DNA from: Auriscalpium vulgare | Lineage: Eukaryota > Basidiomycota > Agaricomycetes > Russulales > Auriscalpiaceae | DNA: 64,000 nt | NCBI GenBank assembly: GCA_019915015.1 | Contig: JAHBBC010000010.1 | Span: forward strand, 434,001-498,000 | Reading direction: 5' to 3' | In this document: positions 21,311 through 63,840 of the stretch, in pieces | Position numbering within the stretch: position 1 is the first letter of the stretch | How the letters are laid out: each line of letters opens with the position of its first letter | Translations under genes and position numbers: made by a program | The notes under the pieces: generated by a model | What the model saw: only the letters and a program-made list of their open reading frames with translations | Databases searched by the model: none | Told to the model about the DNA's origin: nothing

Positions 21311-21314
21311 CTTA

Positions 21315-41346: not shown

Positions 41347-41567
41347 CTAATTTATCTTGCGTTTTTTGCTAATACTCCTTGGTGACACTCCTTGGCTGCC
41401 CTTTCCTGCGCCTTTCGGCGCCGCCTGCGCTGACTGAGACTTCCGCGCCTTAACCTCCGCGGCAGCGCCTTCATGAATCACCCTGTCGCGGTTCAGGGGG
41501 TGGACTGGGGTTTGGAACGGCTGAACGTAGCGCGCGCTGCGCATTTGGGCCGTGTTCAAGATACACT
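41347..41567 (-). pseudogene. Severed 3' end of the E1 transposase-type gene
   Basis: The minus strand reads CILNTAQMRSARYVQPF, then a basic tail ending KKRKIN and TAG at 41347. This is the normal C-terminus of the gene whose main part ends at 57862. Codon phase fits exactly: one base of a codon remains at 57862 and the other two are at 41564-41563 once one ACT copy is ignored. The fragment has no promoter or start of its own here. Confidence 0.85.
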
Positions 41568-41602
41568 CACTGCGTTCAGGGCCCGAATTCAACAATATAA
41601 AG
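41568..41602 (+). repeat. E2 left terminal inverted repeat
   Basis: CACTGCGTTCAGGGCCCG followed by AATTCAACAATATAAAG. About 29 of 35 positions match the right end. Confidence 0.88.
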
Positions 41603-41964
41603 AAGATGAGCTACTTGAGGTGTGCGAGCCGGGTGTAGTAGATAGTCTAATCAGAGTCAAAGGACTCGGTAGTAGATCGGAGTAGATTACGTACTCGAAA
41701 TCAAAGTAGATGCACGCGGCAAAGGCAAGCAGGCGCAGAGCTACGATCTCCTTCGACTTCAAGTAGCCCAGCTGCTCCCGGTGTGCACATTCTCCAAGCA
41801 GGTACGAGTATCCCGTCTGCTTTTACTTGAATCAGAGCTAAGTTGACACCCAGACGACCCTTCAGACAAATTTCGTTAAGTCGCGCTACGGCCCGGCTCT
41901 CCTCCGCACCTCGACCATCTCCCTCGCACCACCTGGCTCTCGACTCCCCACCCCCACTCTCCCG
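41603..41964. other. E2 left subterminal region
   Basis: Short motifs recur: GTAGTAGAT twice, GGAGTAG and AAGTAG at 41630-41780, resembling CTACT-type motifs at the right end. Subterminal repeats of this kind bind CACTA transposases. No gene. Confidence 0.45.
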
Positions 41965-42040
41965 CAGCGAAACAGCCTCTACAGGCTGTTCTGTTGTGAA
42001 TCTCGCCTTCAGTGCAGCCTTTACAGGCTACACTTGTGAG
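41965..42040 (+). promoter_or_regulatory. Paired-palindrome module upstream of tnp2
   Basis: Two palindromes, ACAGCCTCTACAGGCTGT (41972-41989) and GCAGCCTTTACAGGCT (42014-42029), about 42 bp apart centre to centre. They lie 70-140 bp before the tnp2 start codon and are followed by ACACTTGTGAG. The same module occurs upstream of two other E2 units. Likely a transcription-factor or transposase binding site. Confidence 0.7.
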
Positions 42041-42108
42041 ATTCCACACGTTGCCTTCGTCTGCCCGCACGCGTCCCTCTTGTCGTGCCCGTGTCCCTCT
42101 CGCTTGCC

Positions 42109-45100
42109 ATGCCGGCCTGTTCTTGTAAAGAGTGCAACGGGAAGACTGTTTCTCGGTGGCTAAGGGATAAACATCGAGCGGCGTCTGCCCCAAAGGCCCC
42201 GACCATTGCCAGGAAAAAAAGCAGCTCGGCGCTCACTACTGCCCTGCCCCCTGCTCTTGCTGGCCCATCCACGGGAAAGCGCGCGGGCGATGCAGGGCCA
42301 TCCATCCAGGCTAGGGAGAAGCGACCGCGGACAGAGGGGGACGTGGACATTGAGGTGCATCTCGCCGCAAATCACTGCTGTATCGTTGTACTCACCGCAG
42401 ACCAGATTCCCGACGAGCACCTACCTCCTGCCGACGAGCACCTACCTCCTGCCGACGAGCACCTACCTCCTGCCGACGAGCACCTACCTGGGGTTGCTGC
42501 TATCCCGATTTATGACGCCCCGCTGCCAGACCCACCGTCGCCATCCCCTGCGCCTTCAGATCGCGTTCCGGAAGGCCCAGCAATCCAAGCGGAGGCAACA
42601 TTTGGTCTCTACGATGGAGATGAAGACGACAATGAAGACGAAGCCGAGTTATTTGTGGACGCCCTGGGGGTGCTTCCCGGCGACGCCGACGAGGGGCCAC
42701 TCGCCGATGAGCCCATGCCCTATCATTTCCAGACGGCAGAGCAAATCTACACGACGTCGGAATTCACCCTTCCCTTCCCTCCACCTCGAGAGCCACCTGC
42801 TAACGTCTACGCTGCATCACACCCCCTGTGGTTTATCCGGCAAATCCTCGTGCTTGTTGTCGCTCTCAACTCAAAGTTCAATCTCCCATTTCGTGCCTGC
42901 GCCCTCCTCCTCTTTGCCTTGCGGACCATATTCACCGCCCTCGGGCTCCTTCAAGCAGAAGACCCGATGCCCATCACGCTTCCCACCACGTTGAAAAGAC
43001 TCGGCCTTGAAGACCGGTTTCATATCCTCGTAGGATGCGTAAAGTGCTGTCGAATCCACGAGCCGGACGTCCCACCTACAGAGAAGTGCAGCAAATGCCA
43101 CGCCAAGCTCTTCAACCGACCGAGGCCCACCGCACCCGTCCAGCCGAACCAGGCAAAACCGCCGCCACCGCCGAAGGCAACGCCGAAGCGTGCCATTCCA
43201 TACGTGTCACTCAGAACGCTCATAGAAGGCGTCCTCGCGCGCCCGGGTCTCGAAGAGGCCCTCGAGCGGTACAAGACGCGCGACCGGCGCCCTGGAGACC
43301 TCAAGGACATCATGGACGGGAATATTTGGAAGCTACTGAAGGGGCCCGATGGCAAGCCTTTCTTCTCAGTCACGGAGGACGAGTCGGGCGAGCTTCGCAT
43401 TGGTGTAACTCTCGGTTTCAACTGGTAAGTCTTTCGATTCAACTCCATTGATGGCTTTCGCTCACGTACTCTAGGTTCTCGTGCGTTCGGAGCCCGTTCG
43501 CACCAAGTCATTCCGCTGGGGTATTCTCCTTTGGTCTCGCAAACCTGCCCCCCGCCCTTCGGTTGGTCGCTGTATCCTGTGCTCTTTGGGACTGCTAAAC
43601 CCAAGCTGTCTAGGTACCGCCTGGAAAATTTCCTCGTGTCGATGTTGACGATAGGCCCTGACGAGCCGAATGGCGAAGATCTCCAACACTACAACGCGCT
43701 CATCGTCGATGAGTTGCGGGACCTTTTCACCAACGGCTTCGTGGCAAAAACTCCTCTCCACCCTGAAGGTGGGTGTCTTATTTCACAGCTTTATCCCTGC
43801 TCACCCGCGCACAGGCAGGATCGTACGGGTGGCGCTCCTCGCCATCATCTGTGACCACCCGGCTATGTGCAAGATGTCTGGCTTGGCAGACAAGGGCCAC
43901 AAAGAGGATCCATGCCCGAAATGCAAAGCCTCCCTCCGAGAGTTCTTTACCGACGACATCTTATCCGGAGGTTCGTCCCATGGCGCGCTAGCCGCCGACT
44001 TTGCTGACAGTTTCTTTCAGTATTTACCCTTCGCACAGGAGAAGAGCACAAGCGCTTGGCAGACGAATGGCTCTCCCTCCCTACATCACGGGAACGCGAC
44101 GAGCACTTCTCCAAGAACGGCGTTCGATGGACGGAATTCGCGCGCCTCGAATACTTCGACCCGGTCCGAATGACGATAATAGATCCGATGCACAACCTGC
44201 TGCTAGGTACGTCACGCGTTCGTTTGTCTGCTATAGTCTGACATGAGTTCCAGGCCTTGTCAAGAACCAGTGGTTCAGCTGCTGGATTCAAAAGGGTGCC
44301 CTGCGAGGAACGACCGAGAGTGGCGTGGCCCGCGAGCTCGCACCGCTGCATGACATGCTCCGCGAGGTAAGACCCGCCGTCTGCTTTGCGATGGTTATAC
44401 TTACTGTTCTTCCAGCTTGAGGTGCCATCATGGGTGGGCAGGGTCCCAACGATGGTCGGATTGCCCTCGGGCGGCTCACTCAGCGCTGACGAATACAAGA
44501 TGCTCGTCACAACCGTGGTGCCTATGTTTGTAAGTCTATCACATCCTTCAACCTGTTGTCACACTCATGTCGCCAACCAGCTGCCGTTAATATGGGACGA
44601 GTACACCCCAGACGCGACGAAGGAGTATGACCAAGCCCTCAAGAAGCTCAAGCAAGAACGCAAGAAGGCAGACAATGCCGCGGCAGCAGCAGCAGCGGCA
44701 GCAGCAGCGGCAGCAGCAGCGGAAGCGGCAGCAGCAGCGGAAGCGGCAGCAGCGGCAGCAGCAGCAGAAGCGGCAGCTGGCCCATCCATCTCCCCGTCGA
44801 CCTCTACCACCGAAGCTGGCCCATCTGCGCCACCTGCTCTGCCCCCTCTTGCAGCCGCCCCGTCGAATATCCCACCCACCACCCAGCCGGCGGAGGCGCA
44901 GGCCGCAGTTCCTGCACCTGGCAAGGCAAAGCAGAAATCCAAAGGCAAGAAGGGGAAGGCAAAGGCGACAAACGACGACGAGCCACAGCGTCGTATCCAT
45001 CCAGAGCAAACTAGGCTCTCGCTGCTTCTGGCAACAGCGATGAAGCTAATCCTCGCCTACACTTCAAACGATGAAAAACTGGAAAGAGGCCGTGAGGTAT

Positions 45101-46379
45101 TGACCGAATACCTGTTACTGTACAAGGAGGTAACATTGGACCACCACACCCGTTGCTCATCTGCTCATGTATTCTTCAGATATACGGAGTTGAAGACATG
45201 AAGCCGAACCACCATTTCGCAGGACACACGTTCGATCAAATTCGTGACTACGGCCCAGTCCCCTCTTTCTGGGCATTCGCCGGCGAGCGTTTGAACAAGG
45301 TGCTCAAGAGCTTCAACCTGAACAACTGGGGCGACGGACAGCTCGAGATTACCATGATGCGAGCATTCCATCGCGGTCGCAACCTGGACGACATCGTGCG
45401 TACCTCCCTACCTTCTTCAAATTCACTGGTAATAATTTACACAGGTCGCCGACATCATCCGCAACGAGCACACATCCGACGCAGAGAAGGCGATTTCGAA
45501 GCGCATCGAGGCGGACAAGGGCCCTGCGCGCGGCACAGTTGAGGCTACAGCAGAGGCGTTAGATGAAAATGTTGAAGCGCAGGACGACGGTGCGCCAATG
45601 TTTTTATGTTCCAGGCCGCTCTCTGATCGTTGGAAACAGCTCTCTCCCCGCTCCCCATCCAACTTGGCCCTGCAGCACGGCGTCCTGAAGCGGCGTCGGC
45701 CCGGGTGAAAGGCGCCTTGTACAAGCTGTATAACGCCGCAGGCAAGAAGGTCTTTTACCCTGGCGAGCCAAATGTACGGAGGAATACGATCGTCCTCAAG
45801 AGTCAGATACAAAGCTTCAGCCACGTGCTCATCAATGGTCGGCGGATAGTACCCGTCAATGAAGCAAGAAAGCAGTCAGCAAGCTCCGCCATCGTCAAGG
45901 TACTGATCAACGGTAAGATGCACGGTGGAGAGGTGTTGCGAGTTTTCCAGCACCCACAGACTGGCGTTCCCAACCCGAGCGAAATATATGCCGAGATGCG
46001 TTGGATGATTCGGCAGAGCCTATCGCCGGTTGAAGGGGATCCATGGTCGGACTTGTGAGTCTTATCTCTAGCCTTTCGTCACACGAACCTAACCATGCTC
46101 AAAGCCCAGAGCTCGAGACCGAATTCTGGTCCCATAAGACGTATCATGGCGACACTTCGCCTGACGCCCCACCCGCCATCATCGCTCTGTCTCAGATCCG
46201 CTGCCAGATGGCTCGAGGCAGTTGCCAATGGACAAAGCCTAAGCTATGGGCCACCGTAACACTTGAGAGAGTAAGGTTTTGTCATTGTATAGTCTATTCT
46301 TCACTAACAAGTCTGCCAACAGGACGCTAGAGCTATGGGGAACCCTGAACCCGAGTCCGAGGATGAAGCCGCGTCGTAG
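42109..46379 (+). CDS. Tnp2-family (CACTA/EnSpm) transposase, one frameshift
   Basis: Starts ATG 42109 (MPACSCKECNGKTVSRWL). Exons: 42109..43424, 43475..43561, 43614..43768, 43815..43970, 44021..44206, 44254..44366, 44416..44529, 44581..45129, 45180..45395, 45445 to about 45705, then about 45706..46054, 46105..46270, 46323..46379. Introns are 46-52 nt. Tnp2 signatures: CVKCCRIHEPD..CSKCHAKLF, GKPFFSVTEDESGELRIGV, IICDHPAMCKMSGLADKGH (D) with CPKC, MTIIDPMHNLLLGLVKNQW (D), FAGERLNKVLKSFN (candidate E). The first frame stops at 45706-45708. The C-terminal part (KGALYKLYNAAGKKVF to LWATVTLERDAR) continues one base out of phase, so there is an indel near 45700. Acts in the nucleus by cutting E2 ends. 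Confidence 0.85.
42412..42489 (+). repeat. 21-bp tandem repeat in tnp2
   Basis: Nearly four perfect copies of GACGAGCACCTACCTCCTGC plus C, encoding DEHLPPA. A protein-coding minisatellite likely to vary in length between alleles. Confidence 0.9.
44677..44778 (+). repeat. Alanine-codon repeat in tnp2
   Basis: 34 codons of GCA/GCG/GCC with four GAA, giving runs of up to 15 alanines. Lies between conserved Tnp2 blocks in what is probably a linker; its length may vary by slippage. Confidence 0.85.
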
Positions 46380-46607
46380 AGTATAAGTTTGAAAAGTCAC
46401 TACCTACGAGAACATGTCCGTTCATGTCCATGCAAATACGAGAGCTACTGTAACATCGCGTGATCGTCTTGAATATGCGTGATTCGATCTCCGAGTCGAG
46501 TCCGAGGCCGAGTCCTAGAGTCCCAGCTCGCAAGGTAATTACCTACCGGCGTGTGTCCGTCTCTATCCATGCGAGAGCGAAAAAATCAGCCTTTCCCTTC
46601 AAACCCT

Positions 46608-48666
46608 TCAACCTTCGGCTTCCTCTGCATCGTCTTCGACTTCCTGCGTCCCAGTGCCCGGCCTGTCGCGTTGTCCGATGCCATCCCCTGCGACCGGCGG
46701 TGCCCAGTCCTCTGGATCGCCGACCTCGAACCAATCGGCGTACAAAACATCGTCGTCCTTGTGGTCATCCCACCAGCTAGGGTCGATCATACAGTCCCAC
46801 GGCGTAGTAGTGGGGACCTCGTCCGTCGTTCGTCCAGTCGTTCGAACGCGGTGGTTCGATCTACCCTTTTGATGAGCCGTCAGCGAGGCAGCATGCAGGC
46901 TCCGCAGCTCTGAGTAGAGCTCGTCAATCTGCAATGATGTCTTAGTGCATCTTCCCCCTTGAGAAACCTGCGACGCACCACGACCGACCGGTAGTTCGGA
47001 CGGATGACTTCAAAGAATTTCCAGGTCGCGGTGATCTCGTCTGGCACGGCGCCCATGCCCATCGCATCCTTCATTCTCTCCTTCCAGTCCCTCCACTCCT
47101 CGGTATTGCCGTCTTCTGCCTTGTACCCTTCCGGCCCAGAAACCTCATCGGACATGTAGTCCTCGTGCAGCAGGGCGGTCGGATTCTTGCCCTGGTGCTT
47201 ATTCTGGTATGCAGTAACTGCGCTTAATAATTGCCGAGCTTTCTGTGTGCGGGACGTCAAATCGCTACCGTGCGCAACATGCGGGTCTCGCAACTTACCA
47301 CCTTCCGCCGAGACGTCTCTCGCCGCTTCTTATCGGCCAGAGCAGCCTTCTCCTTGGTCTCCTCGTCGCCGTGCTGTTGCCGGAATCGAGCCTTGAATCC
47401 ATTGAACGTAATTTTGGCCAGCTCGTGAACGGTATCCCATGACACCTTAAACGAAGGGTCCTCCCTCCAGCCTTTGTCTTTTTGGTCAAGCTAAGCCCGT
47501 CCGTCCCGTGGCCCATCAGTTAGGCTCGGAGACATATAGACTGACACTCACCTCGAGCTCCCTGAACACGATATCCGTCACCCTTTTGAGCAGCAGCTTG
47601 TTCGCAGGATCGCCAACGCCAGCCTTGAAATTTGGGGTGAGGTAGGCCTCCCCCGAGACCTCGTCCGTCCGCGGGGGAAACCCAAGGGTCCACTCTGGCC
47701 ATTCCTCGTTCACTTTGACACCTGTGATCTCGCGGAATTGGCCCGCTGTCGCTTTCTGAAAAGAGATCAGTCACTATGCCACCAAGAGCATTTGCGACGT
47801 ACGGATATATCCATTCGCGCGTGCGACTGATTTATCGTCAAATCTCTCACCGCCTTGATCCGTGCAATGTCGACCAAGGGAGGTCCTGCAGCCTCCGCCA
47901 GCTTTGCGGCGGCCTCCTCCCTGGTCATCTCTTCCTGGCTTCCGCGTCGAAGCATCCTCTGCTTCGCCTTTTTCGTCCGCTTGCTCCCCGACCCCGTGCG
48001 ACGGACGCGGCTTGCAAAGGCGTGCGTTTCATTGCTGGGGACGACGCCCGAGGTGTCTGCCGCCTCAGGTGCACGGTGCGCGGCGCTCTGGGAGGCACCC
48101 CGCAGAACGCTGCTGGAGCTTCCAGCTGTGCGTGCGGCAGAGTGTATGCGCGGATCTATGCGGAGATCCTCCACCTCCTCCTCCTCGTCGTCCGCAAGTG
48201 GGTCGTCGTCCATCTCCCAGAGCTCCTCCTCGGTGAGCGCGTGGTCGACAGGGATCGCCAAGGCCTGGCGTGAGTGCAGAGCGGGGGAGCGGGGGTAGCG
48301 CGAAGTCTGTTCGCGATCCTTGCTGTTGAGTCGCGGCGGGCTACGACTGCGCTCGGGGCTCCGCTGGGGCGCGTTCTCGCCACGGTTGGATGTCTGTCTA
48401 GGGCGCACTGTACGGCCTCGGCGTGCTGAGGCAGGTTGCACAGGCGGCGTACCACCTGCGAATCTCTCGATGCTACGGTGTCCTCCAACCTCCTCAGCCT
48501 CCCCTCTCGCCTGACCCTGCAGCCCAAAAGGCTCTCCTCGCGGCGCGTCCGGGCCAAAGCGATCCTCGTGCGTCGTGCGAAGGGCCTCAACCCTTTGCGT
48601 GTCGTCGAGGATGGGCCAAATGGAGACCAGCAGCGGCGGCGCGTTTGAAGGCAGAGGGATCGGCAT
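46608..48666 (-). CDS. E2-encoded protein of unknown function, 598 aa
   Basis: Five exons: 48666..47851, 47755..47552, 47490..47299, 47242..46979, 46928..46608; introns 50-95 nt, phases consistent. Starts MPIPLPSNAPPLLVSIWPIL. The N-terminal half is disordered, with RS-rich and acidic stretches (ALTEEELWEMDDDPLADDEE) and a basic KRTKKAKQRMLRRG. The C-terminal half looks folded: REITGVKVNEEWPEWTLGF, KDKGWREDPSFKVSWDTVH, ADKKRRETSRRKV, and FFEVIRPNYRSVV followed by IDELYSELRSLH. Similar proteins are common in mushrooms as unnamed multi-copy genes, from memory. Convergent with tnp2. Role unknown; DNA binding is possible from the basic segments. Confidence 0.72.
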
Positions 48667-49204
48667 GGCAAGGTAGTATTGAAACAATGCTGAGATAGAG
48701 AGAGGAGGACGAGGGCAAGGAAGAGTGCAGGCTCACAACGTGGACGCGACGCGTCAAGTCGCGCAGGGCCCGCGCCACGCCGCACCGCGTCAAGTCGTGC
48801 TGTTACGTCATCACACACAAGAAAGATTGAATAGAATTATGTAGCAACGGCGCACAGAACGAGTCCCGGATTCTACATCCTATGTCTCAAGGTCCACTCC
48901 GTGTTCCTATTTGGTCGGTGCCAGATCGGCGATGTGGCTATGCGCACCCGGATCGCTGTGGCTATGCTTCTTCTATATGAAGTGGCTGTGCGCAATTATC
49001 CGGAGCGCCCGCTATGCTCTTGCAGCGAAACGGGCGTCAACATATCAGTGAGGTACAGGAGAGCCAGATTGAAATTCACTGGCCTTGACCACGGTTTGTT
49101 GCTCACCCGCTGTGGTGACGCCTTGCATGCATTCCGACGGGGGATTAAATCAGACAATGCATGAAATTTACACAGAGCGCGTCGTACACTAATACACATG
49201 GCCG
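48667..49204. other. E2 spacer
   Basis: Upstream region of the 598-aa gene and 3' flank of the 769-aa gene. GTGGCTATGC recurs at about 48933 and 48958. No palindrome module and no gene seen. Confidence 0.4.
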
Positions 49205-51623
49205 CTAAACTTTACGCTCTGCAATAGACGGGGGCCGCGCAAGAGGGAATGTCGGCAGTCGCCCACGGCGTTTGTAGAAATAGCGTGCGTAAGCCTCGTA
49301 AAGTGTCACCTCGTACGCATTGAAGGCGGATGGTGAGACGGTGACTTCCATGTTGTCGATGTCGCTGTCCCCAAACTCGGGCCATGCGTGGACCAGGGCT
49401 CGCAAACGGAGCACTCCTGCCCGCCGCCATATCCAATCCTCGGAAAGGATGTAGTCCAGGTCTGCAGGGTCCGTCATGACATCGAGCCCTCCGTTCCAAA
49501 CACCCAACCAGTCCAGAAACCGCTGGTACGTCGAGGGCTCACCGATCTCCGCCATTATTTCCTCGTCGAGCTGCAGGAGCTCCAGCCGGAAATGTTTGAT
49601 GGAGAGTTGCCAGACTACCTCTTGCCAGAGCACCTGGTCGCTTGCGGTCCGGCTGGCGCTGACCGGTTCATTCCTCCATAGCGGACGGTCGTCAGGGTGA
49701 TAGGGAGGGAAACCGCACATCACTGCAAAATGCACGGCAACATTTAACTTCTCCGCGACCCGTTTATCATGCCCACCAGGCGTTCGAGATGACTTGTGCG
49801 GCTCACGCCGCTTGCCCAAAGTCGGTGGATCCGCTGGATGTGGTGGCAGTTGGGCGATGAGATCTGGAGAGTAAATCGACCGATGTTTGGCATTTGGGCG
49901 CTGTGCGATTGAGTGGTAACTGCCGTCCAGCGCCACCTTCCACCCCGACGCCGTGAGAGTGGTGGGCCGCTCCTCCTCCGAGTGGACGGCGAGGAAGCAA
50001 TGCGGGCGGATACGCAGCCAGTTGTGCATCTTCAGGGCGACATTGCCGGTGAAGGCGTGGAACGGGGGGAGGCTGTATTGGATGGGCCTTGCGTTTTGAA
50101 CCTCCGAAAGGGAAGCTAGTTTTGCTTCGATCGGCGCCCAGTGCAGATTGGTAGCTGGCAGCCAGCTTGGACGGGTCGGGACGTCACGACTGACCACTGT
50201 GGGAGCGCTGCTGGCTGTCTCCTTGCCCTTGCCTTTGCGCAAGCTTCGGGCCTTCTTGGCAGGCGGCGCGGGTACCTCTACAAGTGAACGGTCAGGTTCA
50301 AGACTTTGCGGTGCACGCAGTGTATTCACGTACCAGGGGCATTCGAAGGACCGGCGTGCGCAACCGGCGCAGGCGCGTGGATATCTTCCAGCGTCGCCGT
50401 CATCGTAGGAGGGTCATCGGGTGCGTCGGGAATGATGGGTCGTGGCGGGGCAACGACGGGCTTGCTGCTCAGTTGGTAGCGCCGAAGCTGCTGCGCGAAT
50501 CCGGTGTGCGCATTGTCGACCGCCACGCCGTCTTTCCACGCGGGGGCCTCCACAGTGATGTTCCCGAGCTTTTTCGTCTTTCTCTTCGCAAAGACATCTT
50601 TCCACGGTGTTGGCTCCACGACCGCCTGAATCCATGTGGTGCGGTCGAGCGTGTTGATGGGCCGCACCCACCAGACAGGGATGCCCACGCGATACATCGT
50701 TTGGACGGTCTTGATAGACCCCGTGATCACGCCTCGGACGGGCGTGACGGGTGCGGGCTTAGCCTGAGGGGCGGTCTCGATGCGCGGCTTGAAGATGGCC
50801 ATGTAGTTGTGCCATGCGCGCAGGTCCAAGAGCAGGCGTTGGCACTCGCGGAACCACTGAATTGCCTGTCCAAGCGGCAGTGTGCGGTCGAGACCGTTGA
50901 GCGCCATGGTGAGAGCCGCACTCTGCCTGTCCGCATACGCCATCGTTCGATCGCTGTAACCCTTTGACATCCCGTGGTAGGAGTATGCCCCGTTGGCCTC
51001 CTCAGCCGCGTCGCGGAGGCGGGTGATGATGGAGACGTCCAGACGACCGAGATCACGGCCGAAGGTTTCGGCGCGCCAGTCGTGCTCGTTGAAGGAGAAC
51101 CACGGCGCAGCGTCATCCTTCCAACTACCGAGCTCGAGGGGAGCTTTTATGCCCGTAGATATGCGCTCACGCGGCTGTCGTGTGAGAAAGTCGAGCGGCG
51201 GCAGCGGGTCGGGTCCGGCGAGCTTGCTGCGGGTGCATTGCAGAAGCATGGGGTTGGCAGGCGCGACTGCTGTGTGGGGCTCCATAGAGTCGAACACCTG
51301 GGGCCATTTGAGGTGCTCGAAAGACCCAAGCATGCCGTCGGCGTAGTAGCCGAACTCTTCATCGCGACTGTGCACGGGGACTTCGGGCACGAAGTCGGCG
51401 TTCGGCGACGAGACCCACAGCTGGCCTTTGCTGCCAGGCAAAGGAGCAATGCATAAAGCGTCGGCAGCGCCACGGTTACCGTCTTGCGGAGGAACCGACG
51501 ACACTGCTGCGGTGACTTGTTGCTCGTCTCGATAGTACGGGAGAGTCTCGGCTGGCCTGCGCAGACAAGGTAAAACGGCTGCCACAAAAATAGGTAAGAG
51601 AGCACTCACGGGCTGTCGGTCAT
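49205..51623 (-). CDS. E2-encoded protein of unknown function, 769 aa
   Basis: Three exons: 51623..51610 (MTDS plus two bases), 51556..50334, 50277..49205; introns of 53 and 56 nt. The N-terminal half contains SFNEHDWRAETFGRDLGRL, GYSDRTMAYADRQSAALTM and IQWFRECQRLLLDLRAWHN. A linker with basic PPAKKARSLRKGKGKE follows. The C-terminal half has HNWLRIRPHCFLAVHSEEER, WKVALDGSYHSIAQ, FGDSDIDNMEVTV and ends RPPSIAERKV. No family recognised. The start is about 260 bp from a palindrome module, facing the truncated plus-strand unit. Probably an accessory protein of E2. Confidence 0.72.
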
Positions 51624-52330
51624 TGTGCGCGTGGGCTCCCTGCTCGACCGCTATTTCGTTTGGGATCTAAGTCGCAGCTCGTCAGCACAGGATATTCGAG
51701 CCGCAACCCGACAGTCCAGGAGGTACCAGGTCTGGCGCCATACAGGGACGAGGGGATGCAAAAGGAGGGGACTCACAAGGTACAATCTGCACGGCACACC
51801 GTGGCCACACGTAGAGTCTTGATACGGCGCCTTGAACCGGTGTTCTTGAGGGGACGAAAGCAACGTGTCCAAGGTCACAAGTGTAGCCTGTATAGGCTGC
51901 ACTCAAACGTGACACTCGGACAAAGTAGCCTGTAAAGGCTGCTTCGTCGCGGGGGATGGGGGATGCTGGGGCCGGGTGGGCGACGGCGGAGACGCGGAGG
52001 CGGGGTCTGCGAGGGGGAAGCGGAAGGCGTGGGGTGTGGTGAAGGTGGCCGCAGGGTCTATGATGATGATGGTGAGGTTGCGGGAGAGCGGTGGGTGGTG
52101 TTGGGCGGTGGGCTATGCAGGGCGGGACGGGGGATGGTGGAGAGCGGCGAAGTGACAAGTCAGACGCGCGTCACGCCAATACTCAGACGCGCGTCACGCC
52201 AATACTCAGCGTCACGTCACGGTGTCGCGTCACTGTTCGCCGCGCGTTTTCGCTAAGTCGCTCCCGCCCACCAACCCCGCCTCCACCCACTCTCCTTCCC
52301 CCCCTCCACTCCCCCCTTCCCCGCGACGAA
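51624..52330. promoter_or_regulatory. Divergent control region between E2 units
   Basis: Contains palindrome-module copy 2 (51884-51942, minus orientation) and leads to copy 3 (52331). Between them lie GC-rich sequence and a 23-25 bp tandem pair AGACGCGCGTCACGCCAATA at about 52163-52210, followed by GTCACGTCACGGTGTCGCGT, rich in CGTCAC. Likely the shared promoter of the 769-aa gene and the truncated plus-strand gene. Confidence 0.55.
51884..51942 (-). promoter_or_regulatory. Paired-palindrome module, copy 2
   Basis: TAGCCTGTATAGGCTGC (51884-51900) and TAGCCTGTAAAGGCTGC (51926-51942), on the strand of the 769-aa gene. On the minus strand the order and flanks match copies 1 and 3: GACGAAGCAGCC first, then GAGTGCAGCC and ACACTTGTGA. 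Confidence 0.7.
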
Positions 52331-52388
52331 GCAGCCTTTACAGGCTACTTTGTCTGGCTTCGCCTGGAGTGCAGCCTTTACAGGCTGC
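52331..52388 (+). promoter_or_regulatory. Paired-palindrome module, copy 3
   Basis: GCAGCCTTTACAGGCTAC (52331-52348) and GCAGCCTTTACAGGCTGC (52371-52388), 40 bp apart, followed by ACTTGCGAAG. It precedes the truncated plus-strand gene. Confidence 0.7.
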
Positions 52389-52870
52389 ACTTGCGAAGTC
52401 GGACGCGTCGCATCTCATCAAGGCCCCGATCCCAGCGCCGACTTGGCCCCTCCCCAAGCTGAAGTCCACACTCACCGCGGACCTGTCGCCAGAGGCGCAG
52501 GCGCAATGCAAGGTACGTTTGAATGAGCGTCGCGCTGCTTATTTACGTCCAACTGATCTCGTCTTACCCATAGGATTCCTCCTCCAGCGCGGGTTAGTTC
52601 TCAACGTCCCACAGCGCCCCCACGAATTTTTCTCCAATGTGCAGCGCAATTTTCTTTGCTGCAATCTACCATACTGACATCACCGACGTCTTCTCCACAG
52701 GGCTACCATCCGTCACCGAAACCGCGCGTCTCCGCGCCGTCACCACGAAGTCAGCACGGCCTGCGACGGTACGTGCTTATCTCCTTGACTGCCGCCCGCT
52801 CGCTGATATAGAGCACAGGGAGGAATGTAGGCTTGGCGCTGCTTCCCATCGTCTGGGAGCACGACTTGCA
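52389..52870 (+). pseudogene. 5' remnant of a sixth E2 gene
   Basis: Downstream of module copy 3 the plus strand shows small exon-like pieces. PKLKSTLTADLSPEAQAQCK ends at a GTACGT donor. CCATAG then DSSSSAG comes before a GTTAGT donor. CCACAG then GLPSVTETARLRAVTTKS ends at another GTACGT. No start codon fits and the unit ends against the 3' end of the TET/JBP gene. It looks like a gene truncated when the TET/JBP unit was placed next to it. No family recognised. Confidence 0.4.
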
Positions 52871-52888
52871 TTTATTTCGTGTAATACG

Positions 52889-54524
52889 TTACTTTTGAAT
52901 GCATATTCCGTGGTCCCCCTCCAACGCCTCCGCCTTTGAGAACATTCCCAGCGCATCCACTGCCCTTTCCACCACCTCCGCATCCAACTTTGCCTTGAGC
53001 ACTGGGTCCTCTCGGGCCAGCTGCCGGCCGGTGCGACAGCCATACGTGTGCCAACGCGTGAGGGCGCCGGCGCAATATTGCGTGAACGAATACCGTGTCT
53101 CCCCAGGCTGCACCGGGGTGTTTCCATGGATAAGGAGGGCGGAAGGGAGGAGGATTGTCGAGCCGGGGGGAAACTCAACCACCAGCTTCAAGTCCCAAAG
53201 AATGAGGTGGCCTCCCCGCTTGTAGTCGTAGCTGCCAAACGCGGTTACGGAGCACCACCCGTACGGGACGTTGAGGTGGTCGCGGTGGAGACGGGTCGCG
53301 ACTTGAGGGCCGAAATTAAAGGTGGCTGTAGGGAAGACGGAGTTTGAGAAGGGGGGTGCAAGCGTCGGATCCTGATCGCGAACGCCTTGGACGGTTTCCT
53401 TGCAGCTGGCGAAGAGCCGAGGCCCATACAACTTGTACGACGCTGCATGAGGAAGCGGTCAGATCAGCTGGACCGTCGGACGACGCTGCGACGCACCACT
53501 TCCAAAGCCTGCGAACCTGCGGAAAGCAACGCTGCGACCTAGGCAAGTGAACGCGCCAACCTGCTTGTCGGTCTTGGGCTTCAAGTTTGTAGGCTCCTGG
53601 AGGCAAAAGGGTATGTCAGGCTTCGAGTACATCGCGTCACCGCGCCGATGGTGCGTACCGTTCGTCCTCCTCCGAAGGAAAAGCCCATGCTGAGATGCGG
53701 ATAAGTGCCGCGTTTGCTCTTCTGCTGCCCTGCGGCGAAATCGCAACCCCGTAGTATTTCGTCCGCCTGCTGGTTGGCCTGCCGGATAACATCAGGCCAG
53801 TCCTTCGATTCAGCGGGCTGCCCTGCCAGCGGCACGAGGATGCGGCCTTGTTCGTCAACGATTGCCCGGCTTTTTCTGTGGAGCCAGACATGAGCAACGC
53901 GACTTCCTGGATGCTATCGCAACTTGCCTGCCATCCCATTCCACCAGCTCGAACTTGTAATGCTCCAGGAGTACAGGCAGCTCGAGCGCCTCCTTGGAGA
54001 GCTTCTGCACCTCCGGGGGAAGGTCGCGCTGGCCGATGTACGCCCCACCAGCAACTGGCAACGCCGAGGCTTCGAACGCCGCCGGTTTAACCTCAGGTGT
54101 TGCGTATTTCCTGGCGACCGCGGGCCGCAAGGGACGGACGCCAGCTGAAGTGGCCTGCACGAGCCGGCGTTTGGCACGACGGCGCGTCTGGTAGCCTTTC
54201 TGCGCCTTTTCTTTCAACTTATTGCCGACGGGCCCGACGGAGCCCATGCAGAAGAGAGCTGAAGCTGCAGCGTTGCTGGGTGCCGCGTCCTGCACCGAGA
54301 TCGAGTGGGCGGAGCCGTCGGCTGCTTCGACGAGGTCGCTCTCTTCCTCCTCGGCGTCGGCAGATGCGGCAGCCTCTGCCATGGATGTTTGAAGGGCTGT
54401 CTGCAGGTCGAAACCTCCGGCAACAATGTATCGTGGCTGGTAACGCTTTCCTGAACGAGTCTGCAGGCATGACGTTAGAAGATACAACGCATCGCCAGAA
54501 CCACACAGGACGTACAGCACTCAT
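52889..54524 (-). CDS. TET/JBP-family 5-methylpyrimidine dioxygenase, 470 aa
   Basis: Oxidises methylated pyrimidines, mainly 5-methylcytosine in DNA, using Fe(II) and 2-oxoglutarate; acts in the nucleus. Exons: 54524..54516 (MSA), 54460..53928, 53875..53659, 53596..53497, 53442..52889. Introns are 52-62 nt; that at 53927..53876 has a GC donor (GCAAGT). All phases agree. The N-terminus has TRSGKRYQPRYIVAGGFD and a helical, basic region. The core has ILVPLAGQPAESKDWPDVI, GFSFGGGRTEPTNL, FRRFAGFGSASYKLYGPRLF and NSVFPTATFNFGP. The catalytic double-stranded beta helix has HRDHLN (H339, D341), GGHLILWDLKLVVEFPPGS, LIHGN (H392) and GETRYSFTQY (R403). All metal and 2-oxoglutarate ligands expected of an active enzyme are present. 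Divergent from the DUF6698-type gene. Confidence 0.88.
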
Positions 54525-55074
54525 GGCTAGGCACGATGAGAGGGGGAGACCAGCGTGTGCCAGGAGGTGCCGGGGCCGACTCGCTGCAAGGCAAATCGCT
54601 GAGAAAGGGTGGGGATGGTAAGAGACTGCCGAGAAAGCCAAGAGGTGCCGGGGTCGACTCGCTACAAGGCGGATGCGGAGAAAGTTGGGGGGAAGCGCAG
54701 TGGAGGCCAGCAGCGTTAAAAAGGGCAGGGGTGGGAGTACCGGCGAGACCAAGTCCGGCCACACGACCAAGCGTGTCCCTGCAGCGGCAGGGCCTCGTGC
54801 CTGCCCCTCGTGCCTGCCTCCCGTGGCCGTCAGGCGTCCGGATCGATGGAGACAAAGGCGACGGTGACGGATGGTGCGGGCGGTGGAGGACGAGCGCGTT
54901 GCGAATGCCCTAGTCGCGACTTGGCTGATTTTGGACCGACGCGATCACATGACCGGCCTCGAGATCGCAGCAACGACGTCATCGCTCGGGCGCCTTCTTA
55001 AACGGATGCGTTCCAGCTGCGACGTCGCTTGCTTTTTCCCCTCTTCCCCCAGCCTCGCCTGGGTCCTCGCTGGC
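54525..55074. promoter_or_regulatory. Divergent control region of TET/JBP and DUF6698-type genes
   Basis: 550 bp. It holds a direct repeat of about 45 bp: AGGTGCCGGGG(C/T)CGACTCGCT and GCAAGGC or ACAAGGC, at about 54569-54612 and 54641-54690. No paired-palindrome module is present, so this unit is likely controlled differently from the three units that carry it. Confidence 0.5.
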
Positions 55075-57217
55075 ATGTCGTCTGCAAGCCCTCCTCAAGG
55101 TAGCGTTTACCGTTTCTCCTGGGCGCAAGCTGATCTCGAGGACGGTAGAGAACCCCGCTAGCGCCGGCCCCGCTAGCGCCGGCCCCGCTAGCGCTGGCGC
55201 CGCAGCACCAAGCGCCCCGATCGTATGCACAAAGGAAAGGTACGCATATATGCGCGCCACTTCATTTCGCACAGCGAGCTAACCCGGTTTATAGCTACCT
55301 CATCGCGGCAAAGTTTGCCGCGCGCGGCCTGATTGGCCCTACAACTCATATGGAGGACGTGTTCCTCGCCGGCTCAGGCAACAGCAACCCCAATTTGTGA
55401 GTGTCGCGGATGGCTTCGCTCCCGTCTTACGCGTCTTCCAGGCCCGAGGCCAGACAGACCGAGCTGCTCCATGCCTATGAGGAAATCGAACGACGAGTGC
55501 CCGGTCTCCAGGAGCTCGTTGCCGCAGGGGACGAGAAAACCCTTGCCATGATCGCAAAAGAGGTGAGCGCATATACGTGCTTTGTTCAACTCACGACTCA
55601 GCCGACTGTCCAGATGATGAAGAAGATCAAAGCTGTACGCGCCAGCGACCGCAACGCCATCAGGGACATGGTGAACACATACGTGCCGGACGACCTCAAC
55701 TCGCCTCTGCAGCCAGCCGTTGGGGTAGGCATGAAGGCAACGTGTGGGTTCTTCCATCCGGCACTCGGCCGGCTCCTGTGCCCCGTCGATTATTACGAGT
55801 CATTCGAGACGGACCCTGAGCGGTGAGTGCCTGCTATCCTCTATCGAATTATCCTCTCTGACCAGCACCTTCAGCACGTATGAACACTTCAAAAAAGGCC
55901 TTCTCCCGATGCATTCGGAACCACCGCTCCTAGTGTACGAAGGTTACAGGTACCACTCGAAGGACGGAGAAGACCCGGATGAGGGCTTGTACCGAAGTGC
56001 AGCGATCATCCGCGTAGGTGCAAATTTGTTGCAGTCTCGCAGTCTCTGACGTTGTCCAGGTCGGCCGGCACATTCTCCTGGGCAAGAGCAAAGCGATGAC
56101 GGATCCGACGACGGAATCAGTCTCCTTCGCTGGGAGTAACGCGGAGATCCATGGGATCACGCATATCACCGGATACCTCATCGCATACATTTGCGAATTG
56201 GTACGTCTCCATCAGCATGGATTTCTTGCGCAACTTACCCTTGATAGACTCGATATATGATGAGCTCGCAGACGACGTTTTCGGCCCAAGACGGCCGATT
56301 CTCCTACGAGGTGTTTCGCCACCAAATTATTCATTGGTTTAGCTGCCCAACGGACCCGCACGTTGAGGGCACCCTCCGGTGGTGGAACGAGTACGTGCCG
56401 TTCTATATCGCTCTGCATCTGGGCTCACTTTGCCTGAGAAACATCTTTGGCAACGCGGAGGGAAGGGTGACAGTTGAAGAGCCCGAGGAAATCCCGGTCA
56501 ACAATGGGTTAGCCCGCCGTCGAGCGGCTCGTATTGCGGCACAGATGGCTCTTACGGGAGCTACAGGTGCGTCCCGCGTCCTTCCAGTACTCTGGTGATT
56601 CTTACCATAAGCAGATGCAGCAACATCGGCCCACGTCCCGCTCGAGCGTGCGCTCGCCGCAGCCTCCACCAGCGCGGCCGCCATCGCGGATATAGCCTCT
56701 TCCCCAGCCGCGATCCCTCCCACCCCTGCTCCTACGCCCCGCGAGCCTTCTCCGCCCCCTGCTCTAGGTACGTCGCTTCTGCGGGCTCAGGCGGCGCGTC
56801 TGACGTTGTGCAGATTCCGCAGAGCAGACCATGACCGACATCTCCTTTGCGACCAGCACCAGCGCGGCATCTGCAGCTACGCGCGACACGACGCCGCCTG
56901 GCTCTCCACTCTCCGACCTCGCTTCGCCAACGCCCGCTGCCGCCACTTTGCCAACCATCAGCACCGGGGACGGCATGACGTCGCCGACGCTCTCCTCCTC
57001 GCCCTCCTTGACCCTCGACACCAGCCTCCGTGCGCCCGAGGTCGGCACCAAGAGGAAGGCGACGACCGACGAGGAGCCTGAAGAACTGACTACCGACGCC
57101 CCCGACGGGCCCAGCAAGGCGAAGCGTGCCCCGAAGCGCGCCAGGGGGAAAGCGACGGCGTCGTCTGCCCCCGTCACCACGCGCCGCATGACTCGCTCGG
57201 CCGTGAAAGGCGGCTAG
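55075..57217 (+). CDS. DUF6698-type protein, 567 aa
   Basis: Ten exons: 55075..55099, 55149..55239, 55295..55396, 55442..55562, 55614..55822, 55875..56013, 56060..56200, 56248..56566, 56615..56767, 56814..57217. Introns are 45-55 nt and phases agree. Starts MSSASPPQE, then a triplicated PASAG from a 15-bp repeat. The conserved core has RRVPGLQELVAAGDEKTL, GFFHPALGRLLCPVDYY, VYEGYRYHSKDGEDPDEGLY, SFAGSNAEIHGITHITGYLI and EGTLRWWNEYVP. This layout is typical of DUF6698, a mushroom-expanded family of unknown role. The C-terminal third is low-complexity Ala/Ser/Pro/Thr ending in basic KRAPKRARGKA, a likely nuclear signal. Shares a divergent promoter with the TET/JBP gene. Confidence 0.72.
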
Positions 57218-57826
57218 GGCACTCTCCTCTCGCGCCTTGTGCCCCAACGACCCCCTGCTCCTGCTCTCGCACGGTTTCCGTCGCTCCTGCTCTCGTATCG
57301 CTTTCGTTTGCCCCCTGCCTGCTGCCCGATGGTACGCGCTCGTTAGATACCCACCGATTGCAATGTATATTATCCTGTGCCCGGCTTGCAATGCATCATG
57401 ATTCTCATAATCCTTGCAAAGTGTGAACAGTATTACTAATGAGCAGCCCAGAGCAACAGGCCTCATGCCACCGGCATTACCATCGCCATAAATATCGTGA
57501 TGGATCATAACTCTCATAACCATCGTGAGGCTTTGACTGGACAGGTAGAGCAAAATATATTCGAGTGAGTTGTATATTACAGGCATCATGACTCTCATAA
57601 CCATTCAGATCCCCGCCCCCGCCCGCGCGGCGCCCGCCCTCCACCGCTGTAGCCTACTACGAGCTGGTCCCAGCTACTTTGAGTGCTAGCGGGCTACCTA
57701 CTTAAGGTCCGAGCAGGCTGTCTACTCGAACTCTTAGTGTTTGACGTGGTCCCGTCTTGTTCGGTCTACTTGCCGAGTTTCACTCCCCGCTTCCGGGACT
57801 CCGAGTAGCTGACCTGGTCGGAGATA
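57218..57826. other. E2 right subterminal region
   Basis: Three spaced copies of about 20 bp, ATCATGA(C/T)TCTCATAA(C/T)C or ATCATAACTCTCATAACC, lie near 57397, 57502 and 57587. CTACT-type motifs are dense at 57650-57800. Both patterns fit transposase binding sites. No gene. Confidence 0.5.
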
Positions 57827-57861
57827 CTTTAATCTGTAGTATCCGGGCCCTGAACGCAGTG
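57827..57861 (-). repeat. E2 right terminal inverted repeat
   Basis: Ends CGGGCCCTGAACGCAGTG, the exact reverse complement of the left 18 bp, followed by the ACT duplication. Confidence 0.88.
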
Positions 57862-60800
57862 ACTGTTCCGGCTCGATATGACGAATGCTTGGGCGAGTGC
57901 GTGTAGTCAATTCCCCTTCTTGCCTGACTGCAACAGTGCCGCTAGCGTCGCATCCATGTTTGGCACAGTTGTGCTGTGTATTGACAGCGCAAAGCGCATC
58001 CTCCGACACAATTTGAGACTGCAAATCAACGCATGAGGCTGGAGGACACACCTGTATGGGTACCAAGGTCCATCCGGCAAACCGCAGCTGAGGCATCTGA
58101 TACTTTGGTGCAATGCCTTGCACTACGTGCGTCTCTAGCAGGATATAATGTCCTTTACCTTCACGGGAAATCGCCGTGTTCGGAACTTGAATGATTTCGC
58201 GCACACGGCCGACCGACAGGGGTGTCTCAGACGCGTGCACGGTCGGCATGGGCCCTGGGTGTTTGGCCAAAATCCAGCTGTCGAGGGCCACAACTTCCCC
58301 TTTCTCAAGGGTCACATTCTTGCACATTTTAAATTTGTACCGTCCTGGGTTTGCCAAACTATTGGGAAGCCGCCGCGCAGCTTGCAGTGTGTCCCAGCCC
58401 CTGGCGGGTTTGCCGTCGCTCGTCACAGTGCCTGTTTGGTATAATCAGCCTGTGCCCGAGCGTGAATATGAGAGCGTGATGGCGTACCGTGTTCAGCATC
58501 GCTGGCATCTGGGCCCAGGCCTAGGTAATGACATAGAATACGTTGATGACTGCCAGCACCGAGCACAAGGCTATGTGGGTGAGGTCCGACCGTCGTCCAA
58601 TCGGCTGCGCGGTCGCTAAATGCAGGTGGGCGAACCACCGACTTTGCTTGCTGTGCAGCAAGAGGAGAGGGTGGCGGATCTTGACGGACACGCGGAAGAA
58701 AATAACCGCCGCTCAAAAGGTGTCGGATGCGGTTGCAGTTTGAGAACCCGATAGCAAGGTCGCGTGATGGTGCATGTCGATTGCTGTGGATGCTCTGTGA
58801 GCGGATGACAGCGTTGAATGACTCGAAGGCCTCTGTCGCAAAGAGTATGGCAGGGCCGAAACGGCGGACGTGGTCGGGAAGGTGCCGAATGATGTGGAAT
58901 TTGGGCTTGTTGAACCAGCGTGGTGTCCAACGAGCTGTGCAGTTCAGAAAGTGATCGATCGCATCTTGCATGGCGGCCTATGTCGGACATAGATGTGAGC
59001 GCATAGAAAATGCGATGAGAAGGCTTGGGACACACCAAGTGCTGTTCCAGATTCATTATTTGGGGCTGCCATATTAATGGGATGAGACGACAGAGCGATA
59101 GCCATGTGCCGTAACACTCCGTGGGTACAAGGTCATAGAGAACAAATGGGGCTGCTTGCGCGATGACTCGGAAGTCGCGCCCGGTCAAAGATCCTGCATA
59201 TTGAACCAAAGTTCGACCGGCTAGAGGCGACGCGCCGAGGCCAGCAACATCTAGCGAATTTAAGCGGGTGATGAGAAGTTCCTTCTTGTCGTCCTTGACC
59301 CGAGCAACCACGTCGCGCCAGAAGTACTTGACAAACCCAAGAAGCACAACGTGCAGGATTTCAACGGGAGTGTCTGTGTGCGGATCCAGAGCTGATCGCA
59401 AAGCCAAGTCAAATACTGCAGACACGTGGATAGAAGGCGTGGCTTACTCTTGATACGCCAGACAGGGCTCATCGTATTCTTCGGGAACGAATCAACGACC
59501 TTGTCAATAGCAATTTGCTTCTGCTCATGCGACCCTTTGAACTTCTTGCTAACGGCGGAGATCCGGTCAATGAAGTGTTCCTGAAACGTGTCTTTCAGGC
59601 CATGAGCCGTCTTGCGCTTCTTCACCTGAGTCATGCGCCCAACGGTGATGGCGTCTTGGAAGATGGATTTCAACGTGGCCTCAGACTGATCCTTGGTTCG
59701 CCAAGTGATGGGCTGAAAACCGCAATTGTGAGCCACTCCAACTACAAGTTTGATTGATGCGTGCACGTACCCCGAGAAAGCGACGCGCTCGGTTGACAAG
59801 CTCTTGCATGGTCTCCTCTCGCTTCTTCCTTGACTTCTTTGCAGGTTTGTCTGCGTCATTGTCTGAGGTGTCAACACTGACAACAGACTCACGACCGCTC
59901 GATGCGCCAGGCGACAGCGCACGAGAGTCTGACCCAGGCTCGTGGGAAGGAACAGTGGGTTCATCCTCGGCATCCTTGCCCTTCACCCAACAACACCGAC
60001 AGAAGAACTTTCCACGAAGGCCGATGTGGCAAGCGATCTCACTCTGCATGGGATTGTCTCCGAGGAAGGCGAGAACAATCGGAATCATGAGGATCATCTC
60101 TTGAGCTTCGCAGTCCCATGCCCAGATTCCGTTCTCCTGACCATCACTGGTGCCGTGGCAAAGTATGAGACACTGGGGTAAATTATGTGGTGCAACACGT
60201 ACATGATTTGATCAGCAATTCCATCGAGCATCTCCAACGGTGGCGCAATGTTGGAGGTTGCTAAGAAATGAACATTGTATTCTTTTTGAGCCATCGCGCG
60301 AGGCAGTCCAGCGGGCGTGAACAGGAACGAGTTATGTTTGTTCCACTTCTTCGAGAGATTGCCGGATGTATCGTCGCAGTAGAGCCACATCATGAACGTC
60401 GCGACTCGGTGTTTGCGTGCCTTCGCACGCCAGCGGTTGCCTTCAGCCGGATCAGTGTGTGTCCACGGGCATAAACCTCTACCTGGCGCGTTAAGAACAC
60501 CTGCCAGCGCCTGCTTGTTAGCCATATAATATACACTGAGGCTGAACGTCACGCACCCAGGATCACATGCGGACTCACTCGCCCATTGGATCTATGCACC
60601 GCAGCCGTGGTAGGCAGGTTGAGCGTGAATTGGCTAGCCGGCACCTCGAATGTTTCATAGTCGAGGACGACGTAGCCAAGTGGCAAGTCATCACCATCAG
60701 AGACGGCCTGCAAACGGCAGGCGCGGGCGAAAAATTCCTGGTGGGTGGCATTGCCGGACCGGCACGCACGTGTGAACCAGCGCAGAGGTATGCAGAGCTC

Positions 60801-62073: not shown

Positions 62074-62380
62074 GCTGCTGCTACGTGCTGTGACACAGTG
62101 AGGAGAGGAAGGAGCAATATGCAAAGCGCGTACGCGGAGCGACGCGCGTTCGGGCGTCGGGCCAATAATATGCCATCCGGCCTGATGCTGAATGCAGAAG
62201 TCCGGCCTGGGGCCAATGCCGCTATCCATTGGCCTCCGGCTGACATGTGATCCGGGCTCAGGCCAATGATCGACTCACCGGCCTCACGCTGACTTTTCGC
62301 CAGCCTCAAGCCAATTCTTATCATCCGCTCAGTGCTGACTTTCTCTCATTGGCCTACGCGGCTGTGGAGCGCTGGCGGTG
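62074..62380. other. E1 right end and promoter of its transposase-type gene
   Basis: Holds at least six GGCC-containing motifs in both orientations (CCGGCCTGGGGCCAAT, GGGCTCAGGCCAATGATC, CATTGGCCTACG), evenly spread over 200 bp. They resemble those at the left end. Ends GCGCTGGCGGTG. Confidence 0.5.
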
Positions 62381-62520
62381 TATATTTAATGGCCAAGCCC
62401 CTCTCCCCCCTGCCCCCTAAATGATTAAGAGTAATTGTACTGCCATGCTTGCACTGGCCATTTCCCACCAAGTGATAGTATACATCACTATCTCAATTGA
62501 GCTCAGAACCGCCTCCACAG
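62381..62520 (-). repeat. Repeat family A, continuation after E1
   Basis: Continues the copy that stops at 36377. Matches 17895-17989 inverted (AATTACTCTTAATCATTTAG). Then joins a fragment also present at 35395-35450. Confidence 0.65.
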
Positions 62521-63132
62521 GTTACGATTCCCTTGAATCGTTTCTTATGTAAGCACCAGTCGCGGTTTTTGACCCCCCCTGTAACCTTCATCTTGTCCTC
62601 CAAAATGGAAATATGTTCTCATGATCCATTTTCATTTCTAAACACATTTCTACCTCTTCCCTCCTCAAAAGACTCTCGATTCTGTCAGTATTTTGCATTT
62701 TGTAGGCTAACTAGGATAGATATGCATATAATTACAGTTGCTCCTAAGTCCGATGAAAATGCTCTATAATTGCCATTTCCGGTAAATAATTCCCACGCTC
62801 GATCCCATGACGTCAGTCTCGGATGCACAGCACAAGCGCACTCGGAAACTACGTCATTCCTCTCTACTCCGGCTACTGTACTACCCGGACTTGATTACCA
62901 ATCTTTTCAAAATTGTTCATAACAGGATTTGAACTGCAAACCTCCAAGTTTTGAAGACTGTAAGATACCACTAGACTACAGAGCCATTGACAATAAATAC
63001 ATCAATACGTATCCTATAGACTATTCCTGTAGGCTTTTGAAAGCCTCTAAGTCTGTTACCTCATTCGTGCATCCAGAAATTATGTCATGTCTGAGCTCTA
63101 GCCAACGTACTACCTAGAGTAAAATACATATA
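62521..63132 (-). repeat. Repeat family B, copy 2, with tRNA-like head
   Basis: Inverted partner of 21315-22000. The tRNA-like segment at about 62917-62988 reads GGCTCTGTAGTCTAGTGG on the minus strand. Carries TGACGTCA in the same position as copy 1. Confidence 0.65.
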
Positions 63133-63617
63133 CTGTACCATTACGGAGATAGGCTTGCAGGGGTACAGCCGTGACCGAAAATTCCACATGCTCGTTTGGC
63201 TCGAAGTGCTTGCAGGACCGCATGAGAAAAAAAATGCTCGAGCCACCTTGAGCTTGGGCAGTACTGACTAGCAGTAGGAGTCTTGATGTGAGATTGCATG
63301 CCACTACTGGAACAATCTGATGATGGTAGGTGTCATGATACCCCTCAGAGACCCGACAATGATGGGTGTGAGAAGGTGAGGTGAACCGAGGGGCAGGCTG
63401 GGCAGCAATAAAATGACAGAAAATTGCGATAGCAGATTATCTGAAGCCACAAAATGCACACTTTAGTCTTCCACATCCTTATGACCAGAAAAATGGCAGT
63501 ACCGGACTTTTGGTTGCTGTGCTCGCTCTCGCCTGTGACCTGTGACCAAGTGCTCCATATGCTCTGCTCGCGGGCCCCTGTGACCTGTGACCCGAGCCTC
63601 TCTCCGTAATGGTACAG
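63133..63617. mobile_element. MITE, Tc1/mariner-like, 485 bp
   Basis: Terminal inverted repeats CTGTACCATTACGGAGA then T or G, then AGGCT (22 of 23 matching). TA is duplicated on both sides (63131-63132 and 63618-63619). The equivalent stretch at about 21306-21320 is uninterrupted. No coding capacity. A TA duplication fits the Tc1/mariner group. Confidence 0.8.
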
Positions 63618-63840
63618 TAAGTGTTTCTATTAGAAATTGAACTGCAGACCGTGCCCTTGATCAATACCTGGCGGCCTGCGCGAGCTTGCGAGCGAGGCCG
63701 GCCAGGTATTGATTGAGGCATGGTTGGTCCATGTTTCACGGAGCAATGCCCAATGTTGCTGAGCAAGTTCTTGCACAGCGATGATGGGCACCCACATGTG
63801 GTAGGGTGTACTAAGATTGACTACATGATGATATTTACAA
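63618..63840 (-). repeat. Repeat family C, copy 2, with palindrome
   Basis: Inverted partner of 21090-21306. The palindrome at 63653-63723 keeps TCAATACCTGG..CCAGGTATTGA around a GC-rich loop. Confidence 0.6.

Follow-up and report, generated by a model that had tools for sequence, protein, structure and literature searches.

We analysed a 64,000-nucleotide window (C10:434001-498000; C-numbers denote contigs) from the 51.6-Mb, 96-contig genome of Auriscalpium vulgare. It holds E2, a CACTA (Tnp2) transposable element of 16,294 bp that spans window positions 41568-57861 and encloses a Tnp2 transposase gene, a gene for a TET-family dioxygenase and at least three further protein-coding genes (X, Y and a DUF6698 gene), a content that an earlier note on this DNA had proposed from the letters alone. 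Positions without a contig label are those of the window.

Boundaries, copies and short derivatives of E2

The ends of E2 were read from the letters and examined by flank comparison and a genome-wide 18-mer search. An 18-bp terminal inverted repeat, CACTGCGTTCAGGGCCCG, occupies 41568-41585 on the forward strand, with its reverse complement at 57844-57861 on the reverse strand, and both are bordered by the target-site duplication ACT (41565-41567 and 57862-57864). Ends beginning with CAC and a 3-bp target duplication place E2 among CACTA/EnSpm elements, its start being CACTG and not CACTA; its termini, CACTG..CAGTG, are neither the TGT..ACA nor the CATCA..TGATG of Plavaka elements, as given by Kojima (2025; PMC12730594). 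The terminal 18-mer occurs 58 times in the genome free of mismatches; with up to three mismatches allowed, there were 57 forward and 61 reverse matches, against 16 and 20 for a reversed control pattern. Flanking 3-mers were identical, and of the form ANT (ACT, AGT, AAT or ATT), at 17 of the 19 insertions for which both exact ends were read. A chance origin of the ends was ruled out by the 18-mer counts against the control and by these matching 3-mers. The two insertions lacking matching 3-mers form an abutting pair (C14:181121-183770), in which two short derivatives lie three bases apart with flanks AAT/AGT and AGT/AAT and no match within either.

When joined, the flanks of E2 correspond to one uninterrupted related site (C4:449107-449401; 90% identity over 298 of 300 bases), so E2 was inserted into a repeat and its boundaries, which the earlier note had resolved to the base, are exact or almost exact. 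The right flank (57865-59504) matches C4 from position 449255 onwards, at 87% identity over more than 1.6 kb, and the host site is thus itself repetitive. To the right of E2, a reverse-strand open reading frame (ORF; 58426-58977) resembles a transposase end by eye and has no Pfam match.

An E2 copy of equal length (16,294 bp), 99.5% identical and with other flanks, lies at C2:945723-962016. Two further copies, each with its own target duplication, are broken by other DNA: one of 31 kb (C1:402317-433584) and one of 69 kb (C4:731471-800808), the latter read over 10 kb inwards from either end and over 301 bases surrounding the first catalytic residue. All four copies with an E2 interior (window, C2, C1 and C4) hold the dioxygenase gene, which supports the earlier proposal that E2 is a CACTA element whose cargo includes a TET-family enzyme; that proposal was to fall if copies with the same ends never contained the gene. 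The second copy and the empty site led us to reject the idea that E2 is a one-off joining of two unrelated elements.

Paired E2 ends also delimit 23 short units, all too small to contain the TET gene: 21 measure 1.29-1.36 kb, and the remaining two, at 2.6 kb, each enclose another. At five compared places these loci retain about 160-200 bp and 211 bp of the two ends of E2; the left subterminal stretch (41568-41767) is 77-93% identical, and the right subterminal 211 bp (57651-57861) 88-97% identical, to the short derivatives compared. Ends on C24 and C35 (two) have no partner. Two larger units with E2-type ends, C14:748664-755892 and C2:1478538-1508567, were considered as carriers of E2 genes and rejected: tblastn searches with the E2 proteins (E 1e-5) found no E2 gene in either, their likeness to E2 being confined to the ends. 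The second of these, a 30-kb unit with an ATT duplication, includes a full KDZ domain at C2:1503158 and appears to be one transposon nested in another.

Transposase and dioxygenase of E2

The transposase gene (42109-46379, forward strand) was spliced by hand into 12-13 exons, with the last exon and stop placed by eye. A scan of ten ORF pieces, which are split by introns, gave two PF02992 matches of 17 and 15.9 bits against a cut-off of 28.6; PF02992 is present in 38 of the 48 homologues of the spliced model, and 39 of the 48 bear a mushroom name. The model has the motifs ICDHPA, CPKC, DPMHN, HHFAGH and GER (aligned with 40 of the 48 homologues), a signature that identifies it as a Tnp2-type DDE transposase with CxxC and HxxxH. 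A transition at a CpG has turned the first catalytic aspartate into asparagine in the window copy; this residue is aspartate in all 36 aligned homologues that have the column, and is kept in the C1, C2 and C4 copies of E2. Because this conserved residue has been lost, the window copy is probably immobile on its own.

The dioxygenase gene (52890-54524, reverse strand) encodes 470 amino acids in five exons (54524-54516, 54460-53928, 53875-53659, 53596-53497 and 53442-52890), the first intron and start codon being assigned from splice signals. There are 422 database homologues, the nearest (96%) from Auriscalpium vulgare. Among 74 homologues, the two histidines and the arginine of the active site (HxD, distal His and 2-oxoglutarate-binding Arg) are invariant and the aspartate nearly so, and 19 match PF12851 (Tet_JBP) at E 0.01 or better (best 4e-6). 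A fold search with the predicted structure placed TET structures on top (CcTET, NgTET1 and TET2), with Z-scores 3 to 8 units above those of FTO, PHD2 and AlkB. Active-site residues and predicted fold together point to membership of the TET/JBP family, as the earlier note had suggested.

The HxD motif reads HRD and so departs from the HxE of the PE type (Kojima, 2025). By a weak profile alignment, asparagine and cysteine stand at the positions of Gly331 and Asp337 of CcTET, unlike in AG-type enzymes, where glycine (or serine) and aspartate mark the type, and the 5-methylcytosine-reading asparagine of human TET2 has a counterpart asparagine. With Gly331 and Asp337 replaced, a CcTET-type base pocket was rejected, and the enzyme is predicted to oxidise 5-methylcytosine through a conventional, human TET2-like pocket.

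Cassette exchange, family members and neighbouring genes

Aligned with the C1 copy, E2 is 98.9% and 97.8% identical in its first two long stretches and 99.4% identical in its final 3 kb. The stretch containing the TET gene averages 85%, with exons at 82-89% (the 9-base first exon excepted) and introns at 65-85%. Upstream of the start codon, identity over 361 columns is 98.1%, so that the edge of the divergence is sharp at the gene; the clearly diverged unit takes in the gene and about 300 bp downstream (52584-54524). The TET gene has therefore been swapped as one unit in one E2 copy and is an exchangeable cassette. Between the two versions, nonsynonymous divergence (dN) is 0.083 and synonymous divergence (dS) 0.443 over 466 codons, and the resulting dN/dS of 0.19 indicates that both are under constraint.

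Across the genome, 105 sequences match the last dioxygenase exon, of which three, the window's own included, are identical to E2. These were reduced to 101 places by merging second fragments at C17 and C44 and excluding two AG-type places (C8:367386 and C9:1494737). As many as 65 of the 101 lie within 13 kb of a transposase domain, against 23.0 under random placement (sd 3.7, maximum 34, 500 runs): 10 near Tnp2, 27 near Plavaka and 28 near KDZ, the Plavaka- and KDZ-linked members being copies of the same dioxygenase family beside other transposases, assigned by nearest domain and not by ends. The Tnp2 list combined PF02992 rows with those matched by the E2 transposase itself; KDZ domains were taken from among the matches listed of 168, with fragments merged, and part of these served for the comparison of Y neighbourhoods described below. 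By co-location with their transposase domains, the E2-type dioxygenase family is common to CACTA, Plavaka and KDZ elements. In many sets of identical genes the distance to the domain is constant, such as 2.0-2.15 kb to Tnp2 for members on C1, C41, C48 and C72 (3.4 kb for the C16 member); other sets, for instance that on C25, C26 and C8, show two Plavaka distances, about 1.5-2 and 10.4 kb.

A tree was built from 28 exons, picked among those of the 101 places with an apparently clear nearest domain so that every superfamily was represented. It needs five changes of superfamily, the minimum being two, and both a single Tnp2 clade (p-AU, approximately unbiased test, 4.5e-61) and a single KDZ clade (p-AU 1.7e-38) were rejected. 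The TET gene, together with the adjoining gene Y in some elements, seems to have been handed between unrelated transposons.

Gene Y (49208-51666, reverse strand), the next gene downstream of TET, consists of two ORFs that together correspond to one 746-amino-acid Auriscalpium protein (P0169). It has 17 database homologues, the nearest (97%) from Auriscalpium vulgare. A Pfam scan of five Y proteins found no domain, and a structure model built from 17 sequences (pLDDT 68, pTM 0.46), too weak for a fold to be named, had no match in the Protein Data Bank (PDB) at E 0.001. Merging of neighbouring fragments reduced 36 rows for Y to 25 places in the genome. At 14 of these a TET gene lies no more than 15 kb away, always with Y downstream on the same strand; in 12 the distance is at most 3.4 kb. 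Four of the 14 are the E2 copies, with Y 1.6-2.6 kb downstream of the E2-type TET; in the other ten, Y follows a PF12851 (AG-type) gene close to a KDZ domain, at 2.3-3.3 kb in eight cases and at 8.3 and 12.6 kb on C6 and C53. For this comparison 16 of 17 PF12851 rows were used, C2:2970183 being dropped as an E2-type place, and CcTET-type residues were read in the AG-type loci L001 and L003 only. In six of the ten KDZ-near genes the TET exons are identical by score. A KDZ domain, an AG-type TET gene of the same exon score and Y occur in constant order at six loci (C8:1574222-1581984, two each on C9 and C13, and one on C14), an arrangement that probably reflects the recent spread of a KDZ element with both TET and Y as cargo.

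The position of Y downstream of both TET types hints at a possible TET partner. One might suppose that TET and Y form a two-gene anti-silencing module in which Y would guide or regulate the dioxygenase, and which would move between superfamilies with order and orientation kept and the TET half replaceable. We offer this idea tentatively and would not expect it to hold: no listed TET accompanies Y at 11 of its 25 places, and for 97 of the 101 E2-type genes Y is absent from the surrounding 15 kb, so that Y is not obligatory. We met no TET partner of this kind in the literature, where Y, being nameless, could not be the target of a search.

Gene X (46608-48732, reverse strand) comprises ORFs of 321, 149 and 133 amino acids that are 98-99.7% conserved in the C1 copy and have no Pfam match. 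The DUF6698 gene (55401-56397, forward strand; Pfam 4.1e-8) was matched in pieces at 55623-55823, 56045-56206 and 56248-56397. A 137-amino-acid open frame (56804-57214, forward strand), 100% conserved in the C1 copy, is uncertain and may be a further exon. Elsewhere in the window, a 129-bp unit is repeated in tandem about 11 times at 16044-17633, its copies being 86-94% like the middle reference copy. Inverted repeats, at most 352 bp long (88-96%), link 21123-21933 with 62380-63996, both outside E2 and probably copies of another element.

Functional reading and relation to known elements

We favour, and taken whole consider rather probable, a reading in which E2 is a young cut-and-paste CACTA/EnSpm family in Auriscalpium (Russulales), with a Tnp2 transposase that would work on the 18-bp ends and leave the 3-bp ANT duplication, and with a passenger TET-family Fe(II)/2-oxoglutarate dioxygenase that would oxidise 5-methylcytosine. 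The enzyme would ease the silencing of E2, or modify methylation at its ends and promoters, and would help the expression and movement of E2 and its relatives; the TET gene is an exchangeable cassette of a family spread over CACTA, Plavaka and KDZ elements.

Substitutions between copies bear on the extent of any such effect. The window and C2 copies differ by 34 substitutions, 26 of them transitions; polarised with C1 (32 of the 34 resolved), 13 are changes from CpG to TpG or CpA, eight in the window copy and five in the C2 copy. TET-bearing E2 copies thus appear, from their sequences, to carry methylation for some of the time at least, and matches to cytosine methylases occur at three places in the genome. 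From the excess of CpG change between TET-bearing copies we infer that protection would be partial at best; a general CpG effect may be the source of the excess. The CpG ratio is 1.03 in E2 and 1.01 in the remainder of the window, and an element that is not CpG-poor is consistent with youth.

Several observations weigh against the anti-silencing reading. Of the 26 transitions, 18 create or destroy a CpG, where 31% would be expected to do so (p 6e-5), so that copies bearing the TET gene change as if methylated. The enzyme falls below the PF12851 cut-off of 34.9 bits, scoring 14.4 with its last exon and 11.7 over its full length, and a PDB search with its sequence profile returned no TET structure at E 1. 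The pocket residues were mapped by a profile alignment of probability 14.9% (E 0.0018, two template sequences), which leans on the common HxD and is gap-free to H+11. Across the genome, 36 of the 101 family members have no Tnp2, Plavaka or KDZ domain within 13 kb (two of these are E2 copies whose transposase has been pushed away by nested DNA), superfamily labels stand for nearness to a domain and not for resolved ends, and a few places, such as C48:110240 and C18:764443, are near two kinds of domain. Finally, the 23 short and two larger units that have the same ends and no TET gene imply that TET is dispensable in cis.

That most units with E2 ends are TET-less would also fit a passive passenger, picked up through cargo capacity and of no gain to the element, as would an exchangeable cassette and continued CpG change in copies that bear the gene. 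We regard this as unlikely, given a dN/dS of 0.19 between TET genes that split well before the rest of the element, a family linked repeatedly to three kinds of transposase, and 101 of 105 matches free of internal stops. Alternatively, the enzyme might oxidise methylcytosine in the CpG-bearing ends, licensing transposase binding or excision, with no part in transcriptional relief. The terminal repeat does contain two CpG sites, and transposition of plant CACTA elements is affected by methylation. The present data do not separate end-licensing from transcriptional anti-silencing, and mobilisation of the short derivatives in trans is possible under both; we think end-licensing in place of relief distinctly improbable. 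It is more doubtful still that the enzyme has another substrate or a host role within a large 2-oxoglutarate dioxygenase family merely located in transposon-rich DNA, for although there are about 100 genome members and 422 database homologues, members away from the listed domains and a sequence profile that yields no TET structure, the gene lies inside four E2 copies with resolved ends, identical-copy groups mostly hold their distance to a transposase domain, and the fold search sets TET structures well above FTO, PHD2 and AlkB.

As regards precedent, the anti-silencing protein of Vandal-type plant transposons is not known to be a dioxygenase. Vandal elements, which PMC12730594 names in its introduction, work in a like manner to that proposed for E2, through an element-encoded counter-silencing factor. 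Closer parallels come from the same source (Kojima, 2025), which describes TET genes in eleven transposon lineages, including EnSpm elements of Puccinia striiformis and Agaricus bisporus, as well as TET transfer between superfamilies, proposes the same anti-silencing role, and states that anti-silencing by a transposon-borne TET has not been experimentally validated. Its TET-positive EnSpm elements resemble E2 in that a single element holds both a TET/JBP gene and an EnSpm transposase, with the same proposed role, and the Puccinia families share CAC..GTG ends and 3-bp duplications. Their enzymes are of the PU type, marked by residues conserved in Pucciniomycete TETs, and the PE (HxE) type, whereas that of E2 is HxD with asparagine and cysteine. 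CcTET and the AG-type TETs of Kyakuja elements also differ from it: the AG-type loci L001 and L003 have the glycine and aspartate of CcTET that E2 lacks. For Russulales, Kojima (2025) reports only Kyakuja TET elements, and our searches of the open-licence literature turned up no further description of a CACTA element with a TET gene in Auriscalpium.

A TET-carrying CACTA element is therefore an instance of an already described phenomenon. The cargo-bearing element of the earlier note stands, and the novelty that it attached to the Tnp2 partner does not. What E2 adds to the known picture is the enzyme type, the host order, the exchange of a cassette between sister copies, the common downstream gene Y and the CpG trace. 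E2 offers a natural test of whether transposon-borne TET counters silencing, with near-identical copies at known sites, non-carriers with the same ends and a copy with an exchanged TET all in one genome; the CpG change in TET-bearing copies yields a measurable prediction, namely that protection would be partial and not full.

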